The notes under the pieces: model-generated | The model's database searches: none | The model's input: the letters and a program-made list of their open reading frames with translations, nothing else | Told to the model about the DNA's origin: nothing | Assembly (NCBI GenBank): GCA_002839675.1 | Contig: PGYM01000001.1 | Location: 920,683-984,682 of the forward strand | Direction: 5' to 3' | DNA length: 64,000 bases | DNA from: Methanomicrobiales archaeon HGW-Methanomicrobiales-1 | GTDB taxonomy: Archaea > Halobacteriota > Methanomicrobia > Methanomicrobiales > Methanospirillaceae | In this document: piece after piece, positions 21,700-33,395 of the stretch | How the letters are laid out: every line of letters begins with the position of its first letter | How positions within the stretch are numbered: position 1 is the first letter of the stretch | Program-made: the position numbers and the translations under genes

Positions 21700-22007
21700 C
21701 AAGGGCACAGCGAAACGATCCCATTGTCCCGCTCTTCCTCATCGCAACGGCCGTTGCCGACGGGGTCCGGAAGCGTGGCGGGAAACTCTACCGGATCTCG
21801 GTGGTGCGGACCCACTCGCATGCGTACCGCATCAAGTACAAGTGCCGGATGAAAGGGGAACCCGAACCCCTGTTCGTGTCGGAATGGCGGGAGATGCCCG
21901 GCGAGCAGTGGACATTTACCACGTTAGCGGCGCAGGATACGGCAGGATCTCAAAACCCGCCCGCGATGCCGGGCTGCGGGGTGAGCGGCGATGGCCGGAC
22001 CGGCTGA
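21696..22007 (+). CDS. Hypothetical protein upstream of the primase
   Basis: A 103-residue protein from GTG 21696, overlapping the previous stop and the start of the primase gene (ATG 21991). The central part is convincing protein (PIVPLFLIATAVADGVRKRGG, YRISVVRTHSHAYRIKYKCRM, EWREMPGEQWTF) with alternating beta-strand character. No family was recognised. Overlap at both ends places it in the replication operon of the element. Confidence 0.6.
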   Translation: MTRAQRNDPIVPLFLIATAVADGVRKRGGKLYRISVVRTHSHAYRIKYKCRMKGEPEPLFVSEWREMPGEQWTFTTLAAQDTAGSQNPPAMPGCGVSGDGRTG

Positions 22008-24504
22008 CTATTCCGGGAATGTGGCATCGGTGATCGAACTCCTCGCGGGACCGGGGCAGGTTGTCGAGATCCGGGCACTGGCGGAGAACGCAACGCACAG
22101 CGGGTACTTCACCGACTATGCCGCCCTCGCACAGTTTGCCGGGGCGCTTGACGCGGACCCGGCCGTGCACGGGATTTACGTGACCTTAAACCGGGTGAAC
22201 CCGTCGCTGCTCTCCCGGCGGGCAAACCGGATCAAGATGCGCTTGACCCGGACGGATTCAACCACAGCGGATGCCGAGATTATCCGGCGCCGGTGGTTCC
22301 CGGTTGACATCGACCCGGTCCGGCCGAGCGGGGTCTCGTCCACCGATGCCGAACACGAGGCTGCACTCGCTATGGCCGGGCGGGTTGCCGACTGGCTCGG
22401 TGCGTTGGGATTTCCCGAACCGGTCCGGGCCGATTCCGGCAACGGCGCTCACCTGATGTACCGGATCGATCTCCCCAATGACCCGGCATCGCTTGCGCTG
22501 GTGAAGCGGGGACTTGCGGTGCTCGACGCAATCTTTTCGGACGGTACGGCGACCGTGGATGCAGCGAACTCAAACGCCGGCCGGATCTGGAAACTCTATG
22601 GCACGGTGGCCCGGAAGGGGGACAACACTAAAGAACGCCCGCACCGGAGGAGCCGCATCCTCTCGGTGCCGGACCGGCTCGATACGGTGAGCGGGGCACT
22701 GCTGGAAAAACTGGGAAGCGCTCTGCCCTCTGGAGAGGAGCAGGCCCGGCCGGTGTCGGGCACAAGCATCGAACTGGGCCGATGGCTTGCCGGCCACGGG
22801 ATAAAAGTCCGGTCGGAAAAACCGTTTTGCGGCGGAACCCTGTACACGCTCGCCCAATGCCCGTTCTCCTCTGCCCATAAAGACGGGGCCTACGCGATAC
22901 AGTTTGCAAACGGCGCTATCCATGCCGGCTGTCACCACGCCACCTGCGGCAGCGGGAAACAGCGGTGGCAGGAACTCCGGGAGCAGTGCGAAACGAAAGA
23001 GGAGCGGCAGAAGCACCGGGAAGAGCGGTTGCTGGCCGGCAAACGGGACCGGGTAAGGGCAAAGGCCGGGGATGGCGGCACCGTCCCGCTCGCACCCGAG
23101 TATCCAAGGGAGTTCGCCCTGACGGATGCCGGTAATGCCGAGCGGCTTATCGCGTTGCACGGCGATTCGGTCCGGTACTGTGCAAGTTTTGGCGCCTGGT
23201 ACCTCTGGAACGGTAAATGCTGGGAGCGCGACGCCGCCGGCCGGATGCTCATCATCGCAACCACCGTTGCCCGCTCAATCCATTGCGAAGCCGCTGAGGC
23301 CCCGACTGCCGACCGGTCCCGGGCACTCTCGCGATGGGCGATCCTTTCTGAAAGCCTCCACGCGAGAAAGGCGATGATCGATTCCGCTGCGCCACACTGC
23401 CCGGTGCTGCCGGGGGAGTTCGATGCCCGGCCGGATCTCTTCAACTGCCGGAACGGGACGCTGGAACTTTCGACCATGAGCTTCCGCGAGCACCGGCGCG
23501 AGGACATGCTCACCCGGATGGCAGCCGTTGACTATGACTGCACGGCCGCGTGCCCCCGGTGGCTCGAACACCTGGACCTGATCTTCGGGAGCGATGCGGA
23601 TTATCTTGCAGGGTTCCAGTCCATGTGCGGGTACACGCTGCTTGGCACCAATCCCCAGCAGATCATGTTCATCCTGTATGGCCGGGGCCGGAACGGCAAG
23701 TCCAAGACGATCGAGGTGCTGGCCCGGATCTTTGCTGACTATGCGGTCAACATCGCGTCCGACTCGCTCATGGCCAAACGGTTCGAGACCACCCGGTCGG
23801 ATCTTGCCCGGCTGGCGGGGGCTCGCTTTGCAACGGCGGCCGAAGGTGCGGAAGGCGCGAGGATGGACGAATCGATCATCAAGCAGATCACCGGCGAGTA
23901 CGCGATCACGGTCCGGAAACTCTATGAAAACGAGTTCGAGTTTACGCCCGTTGCCAAGATTTGGATGACGACCAACCACGAGCCCGTCATCCCCGGGACC
24001 GATGACGGCATCTGGCGCCGGCTCTGGATGGTGCCGTTCTCGGTCCAGATCCCGGAGGAGAAGTGCGATCCCGATATTGCGGCAAAACTGCTGGCGGAGT
24101 CGGCCGGGATCCTGAACTGGTGCCTGGCGGGGCTGGAACGGTATTATGCGAATGGGCACCGGCTGGTGCAGCCCCGGAAGGTTTCGCAGGCTACGGTGAA
24201 TCTCCGGACGGTGAGCGATACGGTGGGGTTGTTTTTGGGGACGGAGTGTACGTTTGAAGCGGGGGCCTCGTTGTCGCGGTCCGCGTTCCGGGAGATGTTC
24301 GAGAAGTGGTGTGCGGAGGAAGGAGTACGGCGGGTGCCTTCGGGAAAGAGAGTCGCGGATGCTTTACGGGAACGCAACGTCAGAGATGGCGGGAAGAGTC
24401 ATGGAGAGCGGTTCTGGTCCGGCATCCGTTGGAAAAATGGGGATGAGTTGACTGAACTGGAGAAAGCAGGAGGGTTTCAGGATGTACTGTCCGGTGTATT
24501 GTAA
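21991..24504 (+). CDS. Primase-polymerase / SF3 helicase replication protein (D5/P4 type)
   Basis: An 837-residue replication protein of the kind carried by archaeal plasmids and viruses. The N-terminal third fits an archaeo-eukaryotic PrimPol: FPVDIDP near residue 104 with the two catalytic aspartates, and SGNGAHLMYRIDL as the following conserved block. A zinc-like segment (CPFSSAHKDG, HAGCHHATC) lies near 290-320. A D5 N-terminal domain leads to the SF3 helicase with Walker A GRGRNGKSK near 565, a Walker B-like AAEGAE, and sensor KIWMTTNHEP. It would synthesise primers and unwind DNA at the element's origin. GC-rich codons match the host, so the element may be long resident. Confidence 0.9.
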   Translation: MAGPADYSGNVASVIELLAGPGQVVEIRALAENATHSGYFTDYAALAQFAGALDADPAVHGIYVTLNRVNPSLLSRRANRIKMRLTRTDSTTADAEIIRRRWFPVDIDPVRPSGVSSTDAEHEAALAMAGRVADWLGALGFPEPVRADSGNGAHLMYRIDLPNDPASLALVKRGLAVLDAIFSDGTATVDAANSNAGRIWKLYGTVARKGDNTKERPHRRSRILSVPDRLDTVSGALLEKLGSALPSGEEQARPVSGTSIELGRWLAGHGIKVRSEKPFCGGTLYTLAQCPFSSAHKDGAYAIQFANGAIHAGCHHATCGSGKQRWQELREQCETKEERQKHREERLLAGKRDRVRAKAGDGGTVPLAPEYPREFALTDAGNAERLIALHGDSVRYCASFGAWYLWNGKCWERDAAGRMLIIATTVARSIHCEAAEAPTADRSRALSRWAILSESLHARKAMIDSAAPHCPVLPGEFDARPDLFNCRNGTLELSTMSFREHRREDMLTRMAAVDYDCTAACPRWLEHLDLIFGSDADYLAGFQSMCGYTLLGTNPQQIMFILYGRGRNGKSKTIEVLARIFADYAVNIASDSLMAKRFETTRSDLARLAGARFATAAEGAEGARMDESIIKQITGEYAITVRKLYENEFEFTPVAKIWMTTNHEPVIPGTDDGIWRRLWMVPFSVQIPEEKCDPDIAAKLLAESAGILNWCLAGLERYYANGHRLVQPRKVSQATVNLRTVSDTVGLFLGTECTFEAGASLSRSAFREMFEKWCAEEGVRRVPSGKRVADALRERNVRDGGKSHGERFWSGIRWKNGDELTELEKAGGFQDVLSGVL

Positions 24505-24688
24505 CATGCAGTACGGGTTGGGGGCACATGGGGCACTTATACCCCATTTTCCGGAAAGTCTTACGAGAAAATTGTACAGAAAAAAGATCCCGGAAATGGC
24601 ACTCAATGTGCCCCAAGTGCCCCGGGAAGTAATCACTGACAATACAGGAAATACGAGCGCTGAAGCAGGTACAGGAGTGAAGAGATGA
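24482..24688 (+). CDS. Small hypothetical protein coupled to the primase
   Basis: A 68-residue frame beginning inside the 3' end of the primase gene and ending in TGA that overlaps the next ATG (ATGA at 24685-24688). It has no membrane segment. The DNA contains the near-palindromic stretch GGGGCACATGGGGCACTTAT and a later CAATGTGCCCCAAGTGCCCC, which together could pair as a long hairpin, so the stretch may equally be a structural or regulatory element. Evidence for translation is only the double overlap. Confidence 0.4.
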   Translation: MYCPVYCNMQYGLGAHGALIPHFPESLTRKLYRKKIPEMALNVPQVPREVITDNTGNTSAEAGTGVKR

Positions 24689-25203
24689 CACTATTAATCC
24701 GTGCAGTTACGGAAGAAACGCGAAAGGATCTGATCCATGAACAGATAGTTACCCTGGTGAATATTGCCGTCCAGCAACCTCCGGTACCGGAACGTACGGT
24801 CGGGCAGGTCGGGTACTGCGAGCCCTGCTCCATAACCACTGCGTTCCGTCCCGGACAGAGACGGCTTGAAAAGGAGCTGGCACAGGTTAAGGAGATCTGC
24901 CGTACTGCGCTTGAGGATCTTCAGGGTCCCCGGCACATTATGATGACAGAAGCGTTAGGCGAGCAGCAGCTGGCGCTGGCAGAATTCCAGAAGCACGAGG
25001 GGTTGTTGCAGTTCCTGCCGATGGTGATGGCCGGCGTTCCCATCTGGAACCTGGCCTGGGTTGCATGGCGGGAGGATGATGGATCGGTAATTACGGAGAT
25101 GGAGTCCTGGATCAATGAATCGGTTCTTGACCGGGCGGCCTGCATCCGGATGAGGGAGCGGATCGGGCGGGTGGAGGACGTGATATGGAGACTGGGGGAA
25201 TGA
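24685..25203 (+). CDS. Hypothetical protein of the integrated element
   Basis: A 172-residue soluble protein, mostly helical, with a CEPC pair near residue 47 and a charged helical middle (RRLEKELAQVKEICRTALED). It ends in a tryptophan-containing helix (RVEDVIWRLGE). No family was recognised. It is the last gene of the primase operon, coupled by a four-base overlap. A role in element maintenance is plausible only by location. Confidence 0.6.
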   Translation: MTLLIRAVTEETRKDLIHEQIVTLVNIAVQQPPVPERTVGQVGYCEPCSITTAFRPGQRRLEKELAQVKEICRTALEDLQGPRHIMMTEALGEQQLALAEFQKHEGLLQFLPMVMAGVPIWNLAWVAWREDDGSVITEMESWINESVLDRAACIRMRERIGRVEDVIWRLGE

Positions 25204-25441
25204 ATTTTCTCTTTTATCCTACGCACCTGATTGTTCAGACACTGAGTGGGGTATTGAGCTGGACCCGGTTTAAGGAATGTCATCTTCATTGAGGATCGGC
25301 TTGCACGGGGATTTTCTACCGGGATGTGCCGGACCGCCGCCGCCACGCCCGGTACCAGCCGCACGCCGGATAGGAGCGGAAGGGGGCGAACGACCCAACG
25401 GCATTATAGATGGGAAAAAACCAAGAATATAAATTCAGAAC
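25204..25441. other. Junction between replicon segment and AT-rich pair
   Basis: No gene is seen. Base composition changes abruptly from GC-rich to AT-rich at about 25410. A TATA-like ATATAAAT lies at 25427-25434, about 40 bases before the ATG at 25473. The left part carries no clear reading frame and could be the remnant of an integration boundary. Confidence 0.4.
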
Positions 25442-25474
25442 ATTAATCGTGTGAAATGTAAAATTCACATTAAT
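25442..25474 (+). promoter_or_regulatory. Inverted repeat at the start of the nuclease-like gene
   Basis: TGTGAA (25450-25455), eight bases, TTCACA (25464-25469), flanked by ATTAA at 25442 and TTAAT at 25470. The inner arms are perfect. It sits between the TATA-like element and the start codon, overlapping the expected transcription start and ribosome-binding region, so a bound repressor would block expression. Autoregulation of this locus is an inference. Confidence 0.5.
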
Positions 25475-26564
25475 GGCTGAAGAGCAATTCCCCCCATGGG
25501 CTGAACGCAATGATGTATTGCGCATTTATAAAATATCCGGAAAATTTGGTTGGGTCCATTTAGTCGTCGCACAAGAAAAAAAATCCCAAAGAAAATTTCT
25601 TCGATTAAAGAGATTCCGAAATTGGTTTTCTATACCAAGCGGAGATTATTTAAACCTCGTTCAAAAGATGCTCCACAAGGGTGCGTCAGAATTAGAATGG
25701 AATTCTGACAATAATCTCGAAATTAAAGTAGAGGAAGTAAAATCTGAAGAGGAAATTAAAGACATAATCAAATCGGATGATGATCTGCCGGCAGAAATTA
25801 TTTGTTTCCTCAATGATAATCCAAAGGTTATCGAAGATATCATAAAATTCTGTTCAACAAAAAAAGATATTAATTATTTATCTGATTTATTGGAAATCCT
25901 TGGAGAAAACATTGTAAGTTCAAATGAACGCTTGCGTGTCGCTTTCAAAGAAGTCATCGAAAAGGTTTCCAAAGAAGATACCGAAGGAATGCAAGATCTA
26001 TCGGATCTGATGAAGCAATGGAATCTTTTTCAAATTGCATCAATTTCGAGTTTAGTAAAAAGTCGTCTGGAGACAATTCACACATTTGAACAAATGATTC
26101 ACGATGAAAATACGTATGAGATTGATACACCCGATTCAATCCATAGAGTACTTGAGAAAAGTATGTGGCTCATTGATGAGAATTATTTTTTAGTTCATTC
26201 CAATCGCTCACTTCGAACGTTTATCGGCGATGACATGCAAAAAAAACATAAGGAGTTTGTTAAAAAACGTTTTGATTTTGCAGTCGTTGATTCAGATAAT
26301 AAATTATTAATTCTGGAAATAAAACGACCTTCTATTGAATTGACTAAAGACGAACTAGATCAATTAGAGTTGTATTTGCGAATCTCGAAGCAATATTCCA
26401 CTAAATATCGATCGGTTGAAGGGTATTTAATCGGAAATAAAATATCACAAGAGGCTAGGGAAATAATGGAATATCGGAGGGGAATTAAGCTTATGACGTA
26501 TGATGATCTTCTTGATGGATGTAGAAAAAGATATTCTGAATACCTGAAAGTCATTGAAAAATAG
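25473..26564 (+). CDS. PD-(D/E)XK nuclease-like protein (DUF4263/Shedu-like), probable defence gene
   Basis: A 363-residue, AT-rich gene. The C-terminal part carries a PD-(D/E)XK-type core: KRFDFAVVDSDNKLLILEIKRP near residues 269-290, with Asp in the first strand and Glu-x-Lys in the second, as in DUF4263/SduA-like proteins. The region before it (WLIDENYFLVHSNRSLRTFI) is typical of such proteins. The N-terminal 250 residues are charged and helical and would be the sensor part. No methyltransferase is paired directly. Together with the next gene and the type I restriction system it suggests a defence island. The exact family needs a profile search. Confidence 0.6.
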   Translation: MAEEQFPPWAERNDVLRIYKISGKFGWVHLVVAQEKKSQRKFLRLKRFRNWFSIPSGDYLNLVQKMLHKGASELEWNSDNNLEIKVEEVKSEEEIKDIIKSDDDLPAEIICFLNDNPKVIEDIIKFCSTKKDINYLSDLLEILGENIVSSNERLRVAFKEVIEKVSKEDTEGMQDLSDLMKQWNLFQIASISSLVKSRLETIHTFEQMIHDENTYEIDTPDSIHRVLEKSMWLIDENYFLVHSNRSLRTFIGDDMQKKHKEFVKKRFDFAVVDSDNKLLILEIKRPSIELTKDELDQLELYLRISKQYSTKYRSVEGYLIGNKISQEAREIMEYRRGIKLMTYDDLLDGCRKRYSEYLKVIEK

Positions 26565-26576
26565 GGGGAGGGTAAT

Positions 26577-27281
26577 ATGAACTTCAAATTAATTGCGATA
26601 AAATTGGGTGAGGGATTGAAGTATGATACCACAGTAAACGATATTAATAGGATTTCATCTGCGATTTTTGATTTTTCACTGAAAGAATACCCTCATGAAA
26701 GTATTACCTCAGTACGATCTCAGTTAATTTACAATTGGGTAATGACACTTGCAGATAATTCGATGACCGATGATAAAAAGATCCAACTTTTAGGTGATTT
26801 CATCAAGGGGCTTACTCCTGATAATAGCCCACTTCGAACATTGATTGTCGATAAAAAAGCGATATTAAGTCCCGACATGTGGACTCTTATTCATAAAGAC
26901 ATACAAAGAGTTTCCCAAAAAAAATTTATTGATGGGCATTATTCGGATGCAGTAGAGTCGGCATTCAAAGAAGTGAATACCCGTGTGAAAAAGATTGTGA
27001 GGGATAAAACCAGTCAAGAATTTGATGGTGTGGATTTGATGAATCGTGCATTTTCTTTAGGGAAACCAATAATAGTTTTAGATGATCTCTCTACAGATAG
27101 TGGTAAAGATATTCAAAAAGGGTATTTACAAATTTATTCCGGCTCGATATTAGGAATTAGAAATCCAAAAGCTCATGCAAATTTGACAACCAGTAAAGAA
27201 AATGCCATTCACTTTCTGTTTTTAGCAAGTCTTCTCATGATAAAAATCGATGACTCAAAGTCCTTTCTTACTCAATCATAA
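26577..27281 (+). CDS. Ymh/TIGR02391-family protein, probable abortive-infection component
   Basis: A 234-residue protein. The C-terminal half matches the TIGR02391 (Hypoth_Ymh) family: GHYSDAVESAFKEVNTRVK, DLMNRAFSL, IQKGYLQIYSGSILG and the hallmark GIRNPKAHAN, which resembles HEPN-type RNase folds. It starts 12 bases after the previous gene and has the same AT-rich codon use, so the two form one transferred unit. Family members are found in restriction and phage-resistance loci; toxicity by RNA cleavage is inferred, not shown. It ends four bases from the convergent hsdS gene. Confidence 0.7.
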   Translation: MNFKLIAIKLGEGLKYDTTVNDINRISSAIFDFSLKEYPHESITSVRSQLIYNWVMTLADNSMTDDKKIQLLGDFIKGLTPDNSPLRTLIVDKKAILSPDMWTLIHKDIQRVSQKKFIDGHYSDAVESAFKEVNTRVKKIVRDKTSQEFDGVDLMNRAFSLGKPIIVLDDLSTDSGKDIQKGYLQIYSGSILGIRNPKAHANLTTSKENAIHFLFLASLLMIKIDDSKSFLTQS

Positions 27282-27285
27282 TATT

Positions 27286-28659
27286 TTATAGTCGACCTGA
27301 AAACGCCTTCCCCAGCACCGCCTGCGTCAACCGCTCACATCGTCGGCCCGCCGCAGCAACTTCCTGATCGAACGCATCCGCACGCTCGAATAGCAAACCG
27401 ACACGCCGGACTATCCCGTCCTGCTCGGCAAGGGGGGGGAGGGGAATTATTAATTGAGCAATACGATTTAAGGCTAGTTTACCCAATGTGGCAGAAAAAA
27501 TTTTTCCATTGATTTGTTCCTGAATAAGTGGGGATCTAAAAACAAGGGCAAGGTAATGATTATCGATTCCTTCCAGATTACAAATTTTAGCTGCATTTTC
27601 GGTTAGATTCGCCCCATTGAATTTTTCTGGTACGGTTCCAGAATCACCGATACAAGCCCCAACAATTGTAATATAGATGTCAGAAGAAGAAATTACATAC
27701 CGAGAGATTTTTACCTGAATTTCAGGCTCTAGATAAAAAATTTCCCCCAGTACAGATCCATTTTTGAGATTACCTGCTCGCAGGTAAGGAAAACCAGTAT
27801 TTTTCGTCACGAGTTCTGATCCCTTAGGAAGTCTCTTACCCCCTTTGACACGACCTACAGATCCGACAGTAACATATTTCCAGGAAGCAGGAATTTCAGA
27901 TATGTCTTCTATAAAATCAGGTACTCTATAATTTTTAAGCTTGATTTGATTTGACAATTGAGAAATGTGTAAATTTTCTTCTCTCCATCCTTCCGTCAAC
28001 CTCCCCGAACACGCAGCCGCCAGCACAGCCTGCCGGAACTTCTTCATAATTAACGGCACCCGGCTCAGTTGATTACGGGCGGCGTTGATGTGCGTTATCA
28101 TGGCTTCGATACGGGCGACGATACGCTGCTGTTCGGTGAGCGGGGGGAGGGGGATCATACTCTGTTTGATGAAATCAGCAGGAACTCTCTTTTGTCCGAC
28201 CGAGCCGGTAAAATGAGATTCTGCTTCATTCCGAAAGGATTCCTGCCGGATGTAATAGTAGAGATATTCCGGCATGATTTCCCCTCGTGATCTCATCACA
28301 TGGAATTCTGTTGAACCGAAACCGATCCCATTTTTCATTCCGGTGACAATAGCCGCTTTCCCGTTTTCCATGCAGGGCGTAATCTTTGCCATAATCACGT
28401 CGCCATCACGGAAAGATGTGAAACCGTTACGCACTTCCAGATAGGGTTTGATCTGCGGATTCGTGATCGCTCCCATGTCAGCATCAACCGCAGGCATCGG
28501 GATGAAAGTCACCGGCGCATCAGCAGGGAGAAAATCTTTGGACGGCTTATGAGGATTTACTTCACACGCATCAAGAATTGTTACGAATTTCCAGCCTTCC
28601 GGTAGCTCGTCATCGGGAAAACAACTGGGTTCCGGAGATATCACGACCGGTTTTTTCAT
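27286..28659 (-). CDS. hsdS: Type I restriction-modification specificity subunit HsdS
   Basis: A 457-residue protein with two target-recognition domains. The first runs from LPEGWKFVTILDACEVNP to PLPPLTEQQRIVARIEAM, the second from IPASWKYVTVGSVGRVKGG to PLPPLAEQDGIVRRV; each is followed by a helical spacer (FRQAVLAAACSGRLTEGW; LTQAVLGKAFSGRL) that sets the distance between half-sites. Each domain would read one half of a bipartite sequence. The DNA for the second domain (about 27440-27980) is much more AT-rich than that for the first, which suggests domain exchange. It overlaps hsdM by four bases (ATGA). Confidence 0.93.
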   Translation of the reverse strand: MKKPVVISPEPSCFPDDELPEGWKFVTILDACEVNPHKPSKDFLPADAPVTFIPMPAVDADMGAITNPQIKPYLEVRNGFTSFRDGDVIMAKITPCMENGKAAIVTGMKNGIGFGSTEFHVMRSRGEIMPEYLYYYIRQESFRNEAESHFTGSVGQKRVPADFIKQSMIPLPPLTEQQRIVARIEAMITHINAARNQLSRVPLIMKKFRQAVLAAACSGRLTEGWREENLHISQLSNQIKLKNYRVPDFIEDISEIPASWKYVTVGSVGRVKGGKRLPKGSELVTKNTGFPYLRAGNLKNGSVLGEIFYLEPEIQVKISRYVISSSDIYITIVGACIGDSGTVPEKFNGANLTENAAKICNLEGIDNHYLALVFRSPLIQEQINGKIFSATLGKLALNRIAQLIIPLPPLAEQDGIVRRVGLLFERADAFDQEVAAAGRRCERLTQAVLGKAFSGRL

Positions 28660-30092
28660 TTCTTCCCTTCACTCGCCGCCGCATCCCCATTCTCCAGCAA
28701 CACCAGCACCTGCTTCAACTCATCCATCGCCAACCGCAGTTCCTCAATCGCCTCAACCGCAAGCTCCTCCGGCTCCGGCAAAGAATCCGCATCATCGAGC
28801 GAATCATCCTTGAGCCACTTCAGCGAATCGATCTTGTAGTTCCGCTCCTTCACTTCAGAGATATGGAACGAGTGCCAGCGATCTTCTTTCGAGTCCGCAG
28901 CATTCCGCTTCGAGCCGCCGTTCGGGTCAGCGCCATACAGCCGCTCGAACTCGGCGAAATACTCCGGTGTCAGGGGCCGGTCCTTCTTGGTGATGCCCGG
29001 GACGTTCGTCCGGTCATCATACACCCAGATGGTCTCAGTGGGAAAGCCCTTGGTGAAGAAGAGCAGGTTCGTCTTTGTGCCGGGGGAATAGGGGGTGAAG
29101 GTTCCGTTCGGGAGCCGTAAGATCGTGTGCAGGTTGCAGTCCTCGGTCAGCACCTTGAACACTTCTCCGGCCTGGTCCGCGAAGAGCACGTTGTCCGGCA
29201 CCACGACTGCCGCCCGTCCACCGGGCTTGAGGATCGTCATCACGTGCTGCACAAAGTTGAGCTGCTTGTTGGAGGTTGAGATCGTGAAGTCCTCGCGGTC
29301 CGGTGCCTGGTTCGCCCCTTTCGTACCGAACGGGGGGTTCGTCAGCACCACATCGAAGCGCCGGCTGTCAGGGTTCTCGTAGATCGAGTCCCCGATTTTG
29401 ATCTGGGGCTCGACATTGTGCAGGAAGAGGTTCATCAGCGCAAGCCGTCGCGGGCGGGCAACCAGTTCCTGACCAAAGTACGTGCTCTTCATGACGCGTT
29501 TCGCAACATCGCGGTCAAGTGCCCCTCCTTTCGTCTGCTCCAGAAGCCACTCGTACGAGCAGACAAGGAACCCGCCGGTACCACACGCGGGATCGCAGAT
29601 CGTCAGGTCGGCCCGCTTACGGGGATCGGGTTTCATGCACCGGACAATCGACTGGATCAGGATACGCGGCGTGAAGTACTGCCCGGCACCCTTCTTCCCT
29701 TCGCTTGCCGCCTTCTCTAAGAGGCCCTCGAACGCCTCGCCTTTCACATCAATGTTGAGCTCGGTCCACTCGGTCTCATCGATGAGCCCGATCAGTTTCT
29801 TTAAGTTCACCGGATTGGAAAACCGGGAGATCGCGCCGGCAAAAATATCGCCAAGAAGTCCATGCTCCTTCCCGAGTCTCCGGAGCACATCCTGGTAATG
29901 TTCCGTCAGGTCAGTCCCGGACTTCTCAATGAGCGCCTTCCAGTCGCAGCCTTCGGGAAGCTGTACGCTCCGCTCATCAGCCATCTTGATGAAGAGGAGA
30001 TACGTGATCTGCTCAATATAATCCCCGTAATCGATCCCGTCATGCCGGAGCGTGTGGCAGAATCCCCACAGTTTCTGGACTATATCGCTCAT
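28656..30092 (-). CDS. hsdM: Type I restriction-modification N6-adenine methyltransferase HsdM
   Basis: About 478 residues from the ATG at 30092, chosen because MSDIVQKLWGFCHTLRHDG is the usual HsdM N-terminus. The helical N-terminal domain is followed by the methyltransferase core: AGQYFTPRILIQSIV, CDPACGTGGFL (SAM-binding motif I) and NPPFGTKG (catalytic NPPF motif IV). It pairs with HsdS to methylate adenines and with HsdR to restrict. A leucine/glutamate-rich coiled tail (about 445-478) probably packs on HsdS. Confidence 0.95.
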   Translation of the reverse strand: MSDIVQKLWGFCHTLRHDGIDYGDYIEQITYLLFIKMADERSVQLPEGCDWKALIEKSGTDLTEHYQDVLRRLGKEHGLLGDIFAGAISRFSNPVNLKKLIGLIDETEWTELNIDVKGEAFEGLLEKAASEGKKGAGQYFTPRILIQSIVRCMKPDPRKRADLTICDPACGTGGFLVCSYEWLLEQTKGGALDRDVAKRVMKSTYFGQELVARPRRLALMNLFLHNVEPQIKIGDSIYENPDSRRFDVVLTNPPFGTKGANQAPDREDFTISTSNKQLNFVQHVMTILKPGGRAAVVVPDNVLFADQAGEVFKVLTEDCNLHTILRLPNGTFTPYSPGTKTNLLFFTKGFPTETIWVYDDRTNVPGITKKDRPLTPEYFAEFERLYGADPNGGSKRNAADSKEDRWHSFHISEVKERNYKIDSLKWLKDDSLDDADSLPEPEELAVEAIEELRLAMDELKQVLVLLENGDAAASEGKK

Positions 30093-30200
30093 GTGGATAA
30101 GGATAGAACCGACGTCCGCATTAACCCTGCGCAATCGTCCGCGTGCATCACCAATGCATACACCAGTAGCCTTATGGGTGCAGCAGTACTACAGATAACC

Positions 30201-30431
30201 ATGGAAACCATCCCCATCCGGATCCGGAAGGAGACCAAAGAGGCGCTCATGAAATTCCGGGCACACCCCCGGGAGACCTACGATGAAGTGATCGCCCGCC
30301 TCATGTCCTCCCAGACCGACAAGGATCCCATCAGCGAAGACACACTTCAGGCAATCGAAGAGGGACTCGCCGATATCCGGAAAGGAAAAACCCGGGAGCT
30401 CAACGAGTTCTGCGATGCGCATGGGATCTGA
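30201..30431 (+). CDS. RelB-like antitoxin
   Basis: A 76-residue protein (start at 30201; an ATG at 30174 is possible). The N-terminal half (TIPIRIRKETKEALMKFRAHP followed by TYDEVIARLM) looks like a ribbon-helix-helix DNA-binding unit, and the acidic C-terminal part (EDTLQAIEEGLADIRKG) would wrap the toxin. Its stop is directly followed by the toxin ATG. It is expected to repress its own operon and neutralise the RelE-like toxin. The gene lies on the opposite strand between hsdM and hsdR. Confidence 0.82.
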   Translation: METIPIRIRKETKEALMKFRAHPRETYDEVIARLMSSQTDKDPISEDTLQAIEEGLADIRKGKTRELNEFCDAHGI

Positions 30432-30701
30432 ATGTATACCGTCCATCTCGCAAAGCGGGCACAAAAAGATCTCCTGAGCCTCCCCAAAGAGGATGCACGA
30501 CGCATCCGCACCACCTTAAATGAGCTCGCACAGGAAACTGAGCCGTGGCTGCTCGTCAAAAAACTCCAGGGTCATGAAGAAGTCCCGCTCTATTCCTGCC
30601 GGGTAGGGCATTACCGGATCATCCTGACCATCGATCAGGGCCACCTGGTTATTTTCGTGGTCATGATCGATCATCGCCGGTCCGTGTACCGGAATATTTA
30701 G
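30432..30701 (+). CDS. RelE/ParE-superfamily toxin
   Basis: An 89-residue basic protein with the RelE fold pattern: YTVHLAKRAQKDLLSLP, then WLLVKKLQGHEEVPLYSCRVGHYRIILTI, then VMIDHRRSVYR at the C-terminus, where HRxxVYR is the usual catalytic/ribosome-contact motif. Such toxins cleave mRNA on the ribosome. It starts at the base after the antitoxin stop and ends 12 bases from the convergent hsdR gene. It appears intact. Confidence 0.88.
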   Translation: MYTVHLAKRAQKDLLSLPKEDARRIRTTLNELAQETEPWLLVKKLQGHEEVPLYSCRVGHYRIILTIDQGHLVIFVVMIDHRRSVYRNI

Positions 30702-30713
30702 TCGGCCACCGGC

Positions 30714-33395
30714 TCAGGCTGCAATCGCCTCGTTCCATTGCTGGATCAGGACCGGCAATTCCCCATTGAAGACCCGGTTTGCTTTTCCCCATCCGCCTTC
30801 GTTGGCAAAGAGAGGAATGATATCGAAGTCGTCTTTGCTGATCGAGAGATTTGCAATAAGGTGTTCGCGGATCTTGTCGAGCCACTGCTGCTGTTCCGGA
30901 GTCAGCGAGATTGAATAGGCCATCTTGTCAAAGACCCGGTGAATCCGCTGCTCTGCAGTACAGAGCGGTTCTTCCTCCCGGGCTGCATGTTTCACCATCG
31001 AGATAATATCCACGAGTGCCTTGTTATACCGCACCTTGTGGGCCATCTGGAGGTTCTCAACTGTAAAACGGTACCGGGTTGCGGCGAGTTTCAGCCGCAG
31101 CTCGGACAGGGCATCTGTTCCCCAGTCTTTCGGCCGGTCCAGCAGGATCCGGATCGCCTCGATATGCTCCGGGTTCTCTTTGACAAACTGCGAGAATGCG
31201 GAAAGATAATCCTCCGGCTTGTACTCGTTGCCTGCCGAATCCCGGAAGATATACCGCGAACTGACGGTGTCCTCATTCTCATACGCGACCAGCATCGAGC
31301 GCGAAGGCCGGGGATAGTGAACGAGCAGGTTCTGGAATTCCGGGTTACGGAGCAGCGTCATTGTCCCGGTAAAATCCCGGCGGAGTGCATGCTGCAACCC
31401 GGCAGCGTATCGTTTCATATCGCCGGAAGGAATAAACGCGGCGAACAGGTCACGGGCCTCGCCACTCATCTCCTTGTCGATTCGCTGCAGCCGGCGCACC
31501 AGCACCCGGGCATTATACTCCCGGTCCCGGTTATCCCAGATATCCTTGATCACCTGCGAGATTGGCCGGGTTTCCTTCTCGGGCGGTTCTGCGGTGATAC
31601 TGGTAGCCTGCCGGAAATATTCGAACAGCGTACCGCCAAAACAATCAAAGACCACAAAATGGGATTTGTCCGGGCATCGCTCGCCCTTCCGGGTCCCCCG
31701 GCCCAACATCTGCTCAAAGAGGATACGGGATTTTACCGGCCGCAAAAAGACAATAAATTCCAGGTCCGGAATATCCACTCCGGTCGAGAGCATATCCACC
31801 GTAACTACAACCGACGGCTGTGGCCGGTTCCGGAATTCGCGGATTCGCTGGAGCGGCCGGTCAACCTTACCGGTGATCTTCTGCACAAACGAATCCCCTT
31901 TCCCGAAAACATCCCGGGCAAGATCCACCAGCTGGTCCGCGTGGGAAGTATGGGGAATATCATTCACGGCGAAGATCAGGGTCTTGGGGAACCGGCCAAA
32001 CCGCTGCTCATGCTCTTCTGCGTATTTCCGGATCTCGGTAAGGATCTTCCGGTTCGAGTCCGGCGAAGTGATGGTTCGTTCTACTTCCGTAGTATCGAAT
32101 TGCCGTTCATCCTCAAGGTTATCAAACGATTGTGCTCCGGTTGCTGCATCAATCACGCCGACCTGTTCCCCGGCTTGAAGGAAGATCCCGTTCATTCGCA
32201 CATTTGAGTCAAGAGCAACCGCATCGTAATCGACCAGGAACCCTTCCCGCACCGCCCGGGCATAATCGTACCGGTACACGATCTCCCGGAAATAGGCCAT
32301 TGTGTGAGCTGCCGGGGTAGCCGTCAGCCCGATCTTGATCGCATCGAAATGATCCAGCGTCTTGCGCCAGACCGATTGCTCCGCTGAAGTATATCCCCGG
32401 TGGCATTCGTCCGCAACGATCAGGTCAAAGGCATGGATCGGAATATCCATCTGTTCCGCATCCTCATCGATTGGCTCATCGCTGGATCCGAACAGTGCGT
32501 TACGCCCGAACAGATTGATCGTCATCCGCTGGATCGTGCAGACATAGACAAATGCAAGGCCGGGTTTCGGTTCCAACAGGTAATTCGGAGGGAGCACTTT
32601 TGGATCAAATTTCTCATCCTCCTCAAAATCTTCGCGGAAGAACCGCTGGCTGTAGACCTCATATGCCTTGTCGAATTTCAGCCCGGGCCTGCCTTCAAAT
32701 GAAGCAAATGCTTTGACTGCCTGAGCTGCAAGAGCCCGGCGATCGACGAGGAAGAGAATCCGTTTTCCAACATGGGATTCCATCAGCCTGAAGATCTGGT
32801 TGACCATCGTGTAGGTCTTGCCAGTCCCGGTTGCCATTGCGATCAGCATCTGGCGCTTCCGGTCACGGATCGCCTGCTCGATTGCCGCATTCGCTTCAGC
32901 CTGGTAGGGGCGTATCATCGGGTGCGTATTTTCCCATTCCAAAAGACGCTGGCAGGACGCCTCGAATTTTTCTTTGAGCCGTTCGGCTAACGCGTCCGCC
33001 GTATGGAATTTTGCTATGGGCCGGGATCTGTTTAACTGATTGCGGAGATCGTGGAACCAGATGATCTCGCCATTTGTGGAATAAATAAAAGGGACCCGGA
33101 AGCCGGAGAAATTGAACGGGCTGCCCGGAATCCCGGTGGCGTACCGTTCGGCTTGGGTCAGCACATTTTGCGGGCCGAGAGTGACTTTTTTTGCCTCGAT
33201 AACAGCAATGATCTTCCCGTCAAGACAGAGTGCATAATCAGCGGGACCGTTTGCTGTGGGAAATTCTTCAAGAGCGCACTTGTTGAACCGGGAGATGTCC
33301 ATGCCATTCTTAAAAGGCACAACAGACCAACCTGCAGCTTTCAGTAAGGGATCGATCCGTTTCTTTCGTGTGACTTCTTCAGGCTCACCGTTCAT
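30714..33395 (-). CDS. hsdR: Type I restriction-modification endonuclease/helicase HsdR (EcoEI-like)
   Basis: An 893-residue protein. The N-terminal nuclease shows ALCLDGKIIAVIEAKK (Asp...Glu-x-Lys), a PD-(D/E)XK site, within residues 1-100. The helicase motor follows: ATGTGKTYT (Walker A) near 195, DECHRGYTSA (motif II), TATPA (motif III) and LGRGTRKGE (motif VI). A C-terminal helical domain of about 200 residues contacts HsdM. It would translocate and cut unmethylated DNA. It is separated from hsdM by the toxin-antitoxin pair, so it must have its own promoter; the start at 33395 lies 5 bases after GGAAG. Confidence 0.95.
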   Translation of the reverse strand: MNGEPEEVTRKKRIDPLLKAAGWSVVPFKNGMDISRFNKCALEEFPTANGPADYALCLDGKIIAVIEAKKVTLGPQNVLTQAERYATGIPGSPFNFSGFRVPFIYSTNGEIIWFHDLRNQLNRSRPIAKFHTADALAERLKEKFEASCQRLLEWENTHPMIRPYQAEANAAIEQAIRDRKRQMLIAMATGTGKTYTMVNQIFRLMESHVGKRILFLVDRRALAAQAVKAFASFEGRPGLKFDKAYEVYSQRFFREDFEEDEKFDPKVLPPNYLLEPKPGLAFVYVCTIQRMTINLFGRNALFGSSDEPIDEDAEQMDIPIHAFDLIVADECHRGYTSAEQSVWRKTLDHFDAIKIGLTATPAAHTMAYFREIVYRYDYARAVREGFLVDYDAVALDSNVRMNGIFLQAGEQVGVIDAATGAQSFDNLEDERQFDTTEVERTITSPDSNRKILTEIRKYAEEHEQRFGRFPKTLIFAVNDIPHTSHADQLVDLARDVFGKGDSFVQKITGKVDRPLQRIREFRNRPQPSVVVTVDMLSTGVDIPDLEFIVFLRPVKSRILFEQMLGRGTRKGERCPDKSHFVVFDCFGGTLFEYFRQATSITAEPPEKETRPISQVIKDIWDNRDREYNARVLVRRLQRIDKEMSGEARDLFAAFIPSGDMKRYAAGLQHALRRDFTGTMTLLRNPEFQNLLVHYPRPSRSMLVAYENEDTVSSRYIFRDSAGNEYKPEDYLSAFSQFVKENPEHIEAIRILLDRPKDWGTDALSELRLKLAATRYRFTVENLQMAHKVRYNKALVDIISMVKHAAREEEPLCTAEQRIHRVFDKMAYSISLTPEQQQWLDKIREHLIANLSISKDDFDIIPLFANEGGWGKANRVFNGELPVLIQQWNEAIAA

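Follow-up and report, generated by a model that had tools for sequence, protein, structure and literature searches.

Does an AT-rich pair of adjacent genes, lying beside a type I restriction system in a methanogen genome, encode a two-part defence system in which a nuclease serves as sensor and an RNase-like protein as effector? This was proposed in an initial annotation of a 64,000-nt stretch of DNA (here called the window), and we followed the proposal up by computational analysis. The two genes, A and B, are co-directional on the same strand, with an operon-like spacing of 12 nt between them in the list of open reading frames. The features of the locus are the following:

21991-24504, plus strand: P4-family primase (D5_N), a mark of an integrated element, to the left of the block
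25396-27300, no strand: AT-rich accessory block (cassette) flanked by two repeat parts; contains both genes and the promoter region, GC 0.340
25427-25432, plus strand: candidate archaeal TATA box ATATAA, read from the sequence, 46 nt 5' of the ATG of gene A
25473-26564, plus strand: gene A, 363 aa; N-terminal ~95 residues without assignment, then a paraMORC3/BbrUII-type PD-(D/E)XK domain (~94-358) with D268 and E282-x-K284
26577-27281, plus strand: gene B, 234 aa; the first ~100 residues helical and of poor prediction quality, then a Ymh/TIGR02391 (PF09509) HEPN domain (~104-228) with the motif R195-NPKA-H200
27286-28659, minus strand: hsdS, specificity subunit of the type I system, running towards B with 4 nt between the stops
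28656-30134, minus strand: hsdM, type I methyltransferase
30432-30701, plus strand: ParE-type toxin, with a probable antitoxin in 29862-30431
30714-33395, minus strand: hsdR, type I restriction subunit

The purine-rich GGGGGAGGG lies immediately 5' of the ATG of B. The GC content is 0.341 in A and 0.342 in B, compared with 0.587 for the adjoining 2 kb on the left, 0.504 for those on the right and 50.6% in the window, in agreement with the earlier statement that the pair differs in base composition from both neighbours. More specifically, GC3 is 0.30 in the pair against 0.76 in hsdM and the primase, and equal AT-richness was reached in 1 of 621 segments of the same length. The composition of the pair is foreign, and the 12-nt spacing together with the matching GC of the two genes argues for their joint transfer. 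The presence of type I restriction and toxin-antitoxin genes beside the block, also claimed previously, is borne out by the hsd genes and the ParE-type toxin to its right. Our best reading of these and the following results is that A-B is an accessory defence cassette acquired by import and consists of either a two-part unit resembling PD-lambda-3 or two solo genes.

Gene A had been described as a Shedu-like PD-(D/E)XK protein, and only the second part of this description was retained. The PD-(D/E)XK signature is present, and D268, E282 and K284 fall on the E-D-ExK residues of paraMORC3, in which the C-terminal domain has been classed as an endonuclease of the RE fold bearing E-D-ExK motifs (PMC2292703). 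The best relatives of A are the C-terminal nucleases of paraMORC3/BbrUII proteins. Using phrog_6203, a family that spans whole paraMORC3 proteins (profile length 644), we found that positions 353-626 match residues 94-358 of A (E 7e-28), while a whole archaeal paraMORC3 covers the profile over 6-634; the NCBIfam family NF050001 (BbrUII/HgiDII) matches A at positions 423-644 of 659 (E 1.4e-10). A Shedu assignment was tried and rejected, as SduA_C (PF14082) gave 21.4 bits, under its curated cut-off of 27, and paraMORC3 fits better. NucS_C and HSDR_N_2 also match A, just under their cut-offs. The domain profile search gave no HATPase (GHKL/S5 ATPase) match in A; residues 1 to ~95 match no family, and the N-terminal 110 residues have no Pfam or plasmid match. 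AlphaFold models A poorly (pLDDT 46). Taken together, the profile matches suggest that A is probably an ATPase-less PD-(D/E)XK protein of the paraMORC3 type and a putative DNase. When the A-domain profile was run on 393 archaeal genomes, it returned 15 full-length matches (E < 1e-40), of which 14 lie in reading frames 584-718 aa long; the window's own, in a 369-aa frame, is the sole exception. A has one copy in its own genome and was not found in the rest of the genus, and a single-protein scan of viral contigs gave no direct relatives; phage records contained one paraMORC3 match.

The assignment of B as a HEPN-type Ymh protein was confirmed, with scores that greatly exceed the curated cut-offs (PF09509, 95.4 vs 25 bits; TIGR02391, 72.9 vs 39.45), and by these scores B is clearly predicted to be a member of the Ymh family. 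It carries the HEPN R-x4-H motif as RNPKAH (R195, H200), in which R, N and H are invariant in one Ymh alignment, and N and H are invariant and R nearly so in another. Conservation of the active-site residues, on which the initial annotation had staked its proposal beforehand, was thus observed for both A and B. Confidence in the predicted model of B is restricted to the HEPN half and peaks at about residues 101-190; the best match of the model in the PDB is the HEPN protein 2hsb (probability 0.99, E-value 0.17). B probably cuts RNA. The nearest relatives of B are from Bacilli (58% identity), Arcobacter (54%) and Lachnospiraceae (47%), followed by Bacteroidales (46-49%) and Spirochaetales (43%), and in the tree B is nested in a bacterial clade (support 100/96) and is separated from the Ymh proteins that its own archaeal genus and order contain. 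This bacterial kinship, together with the low GC, points to an import of B from bacteria. Single-protein scans of viral contigs and genome contigs gave no direct relatives of B, and phage records contained two distant Ymh matches.

A nuclease-like protein followed by a Ymh protein has a described counterpart, PD-lambda-3 (Vassallo 2022, PMC9519451), which in E. coli acts by abortive infection (PMC13190303) and is also listed under PD-(D/E)XK (PMC10952713). The initial annotation knew of no described system with this exact pair; this stands insofar as the A family differs, but not for the domain pairing, which PD-lambda-3 shares. Like A-B, PD-lambda-3 consists of two genes, with a PD-(D/E)XK-like protein upstream and then Ymh, and the reference system, carried by an Enterobacter plasmid (L033), has a 159-aa protein followed by a 267-aa Ymh. 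Its first protein (PD-Lambda-3_A, L033:2077-2553) is PD-(D/E)XK-like, with E41, P94-D95 and E111-x-K113. PADLOC gave no match between PD-Lambda-3_A and A (159 vs 363 aa) at E<=1, and hhalign aligned the two around the active site only (probability 47, E 1.9e-4). PD-Lambda-3_B matches B in the Ymh domain (PADLOC, E 2.2e-16, profile 141-264 of 270) but not in the N-terminal half; the proteins differ in length (267 vs 234 aa) and lie on separate Ymh branches in the tree. As A is not PD-Lambda-3_A and B belongs to another branch, A-B would at most work like PD-lambda-3, without being a member of it. A third gene closely follows Ymh of the PD-lambda-3 type in two loci, encoding an Mrr_cat nuclease (L033:3402-4835) or a 427-aa protein without assignment (L034:3400-4683), which hints at a three-gene variant of PD-lambda-3. 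In four loci from other archaea (L007, L009, L188, L192), a Ymh resembling PD-Lambda-3_B is immediately followed by a gene resembling type I hsdS, and a PD-Lambda-3_A homologue beside this Ymh is absent.

Other known systems share single modules with the pair. ParaMORC3/BbrUII-HgiDII proteins have the C-terminal linker and RE-fold nuclease domain in common with A, but they possess a GHKL/S5 ATPase, in place of which A carries another N-terminal stretch of ~95 residues. Fusions of Ymh to paraMORC ATPases have been reported (Anantharaman 2013, PMC3710099) and, like A-B, bring together a paraMORC module and a Ymh HEPN domain in the vicinity of R-M genes; these fusions keep the ATPase joined to Ymh, whereas A-B keeps the nuclease without the ATPase and has Ymh as a separate gene. 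We also observed a 546-aa GHKL ATPase-Ymh fusion (L053:1564-4375), whose gene overlaps the end of one resembling a DNA cytosine methyltransferase. Considering these fusions, A-B combines related modules in another way. Shedu (SduA) resembles A in having a variable N-terminal domain and a PD-(D/E)XK domain, for which an N-terminal clamp sets the specificity (PMC12904381); it is a single-gene system, unlike A-B.

The proposal had also rested on the adjacent pair recurring elsewhere, and this expectation failed among the loci searched. We compared 77 Ymh loci including the window's own, with flanks of up to 1.5-4 kb, and found a homologue of A beside Ymh in 0 of the 76 others; at one locus (L059) another gene gave a partial match to A (E 1.7e-4). 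For bacteria, the architecture of A was covered by plasmid and phage records and by the neighbours of the fetched Ymh loci. No conserved linkage thus backs a dedicated two-part A-B system, and within the data covered the pair stands alone, a functional parallel being known. At L046, whose Ymh is the closest to B along the tree, an Mrr_cat nuclease gene lies 85 nt downstream of Ymh, and in the Enterobacter plasmid PD-Lambda-3_A precedes Ymh and Mrr_cat follows it, suggesting that Ymh sometimes accompanies PD-(D/E)XK proteins, though not those of A's family.

We tentatively favour, with a probability of about 0.42, that A-B is a horizontally acquired defence cassette at the 3' end of the type I operon, acting by abortive infection in the manner of PD-lambda-3. 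A sensor plus effector arrangement is plausible, and we infer DNA cleavage, RNA cleavage, a physical or functional coupling of the two proteins and a trigger along the following lines. By analogy with Shedu, the N-terminal domain and helical linker of A would recognise some feature of invading DNA; A would then nick or cut this DNA and/or release B, and the RNase activity of B would finally halt the cell. Solo defence genes are often found side by side in islands, which counts against a coupled A-B. It is accordingly a serious possibility that two independent genes share the cassette, A as a Shedu-like DNase system and B as a solo Ymh abortive-infection RNase: the near relatives of B are mostly solo, with no nuclease as neighbour, A homologues never stand beside Ymh among the loci compared, the Shedu, NucS and HSDR domains match A weakly, and an N-terminal clamp with PD-(D/E)XK suffices for Shedu (PMC12904381). 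The 12-nt spacing, the common GC and GC3, the placement of both genes in a single block between repeat parts and the existence of a tested system with such a pairing, PD-lambda-3, speak against this independence.

A toxin-antitoxin module, with B as HEPN toxin and the upstream A as its neutraliser and autoregulator, is quite improbable. HEPN toxins frequently occur in two-gene modules, the gene order would be antitoxin first, and the ParE-type toxin and other toxin-antitoxin genes are close by; A, however, has a full nuclease active site, needless for an antitoxin, and the domain profile search gave no match in A to the nucleotidyltransferase (MNT) of HEPN-MNT modules. Nor is this reading helped by the palindromic operator that had been claimed at the start site of A:

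25450-25469, no strand: inverted repeat TGTGAA-8-TTCACA, claimed as operator, at chance level

We judged this repeat, and also a gapped version with flanking ATTAAT, against dinucleotide shuffles, 100 at first and then 300 under differing scoring. It was equalled or bettered in 18 of 100 and, depending on the scoring, in 108-172 of 300 shuffles, and the operator was consequently rejected. Weakest of all, and very improbable in our estimate, is that A is a decay product, a C-terminal paraMORC3 remnant with a chance N-terminal extension and no present function, next to a stranded B: although A aligns with the C-terminal ~40% of paraMORC3 only, its residues 1 to ~95 match nothing and the left repeat part is truncated, both frames are intact, the active-site residues are kept, the ATG of A follows the TATA-like box by 46 nt and the list of open reading frames shows no trace of ATPase coding sequence upstream.

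The block that holds the favoured defence cassette is bounded on both sides by parts of one dispersed repeat:

25328-25395, minus strand: repeat part of 68 bp, left boundary of the A-B block, 91% identity, E 2.1e-21
27301-27354, minus strand: right boundary of the block, formed by the 3' end of hsdS, which doubles as the second half of the repeat, 93% identity, E 1.7e-16

The complete repeat is ~110 bp long. Of 39 genomes of the genus, 15 carry it, one of them in 21 copies. On several contigs, copies follow each other on one strand at intervals of ~1-2.5 kb and enclose one or a few accessory genes. In the arrays of related genomes (L101/L146, L149, L151, L152, L156), the cargo between repeats includes defence or toxin-antitoxin genes, namely GmrSD/HEC-05, YhcG/PDC-S02, RmrA-like, Schlafen AlbA_2, KAP NTPase and PIN. 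The same gene may occur in different neighbourhoods with a fixed orientation to the repeat, as we saw for the Schlafen gene (L149 and L151), the PIN gene (L151 and L156) and the RmrA-like pair (L146 and L151). Direct repeats of the kind left by target-site duplication are absent immediately beside A-B. An integron-like attC or hairpin recombination site found no support, as the single-strand folding of the repeat did not surpass that of shuffles in six copies. Homologous exchange between repeats would suffice for the movement of the cargo, and the repeat is possibly a site of gene-cassette exchange; this setting, rather than the A-B pair, may be the more novel observation.

Both sides could be joined into one reading, which we hold to be unlikely as a whole: A-B would be a new two-component abortive system, made of a paraMORC3-type nuclease that gave up its ATPase and took on another sensor domain, and of a separate HEPN RNase, and it would travel as a cassette of a repeat-bounded defence and toxin-antitoxin array of methanogens, with the ~110-bp boundary element, including the 3' end of hsdS, as the exchange site. 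If A-B is one unit, the pairing of a DNase with a Ymh-RNase known from PD-lambda-3 would have arisen at least twice, from nuclease families unrelated to each other, a paraMORC3 nuclease would be able to act without its ATPase, and what the nuclease does in such pairs, as sensor, cutter or switch, becomes testable. The repeat-bounded cargo offers a handle on the exchange of defence genes beside type I restriction operons in methanogens.

Some variation was also seen around the block. The open reading frame that follows the P4-type primase (24685-25203, 172 aa) has no family match and weakly resembles the post-primase reading frames of one relative (L108). Comparison of the hsd operon with its relatives (L100-L105, L115) shows strong conservation of hsdR and hsdM, but variation or replacement of hsdS and of whatever genes follow. 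Some relatives carry the ParE-type toxin module next to hsdM (L100, L115) and others lack it.
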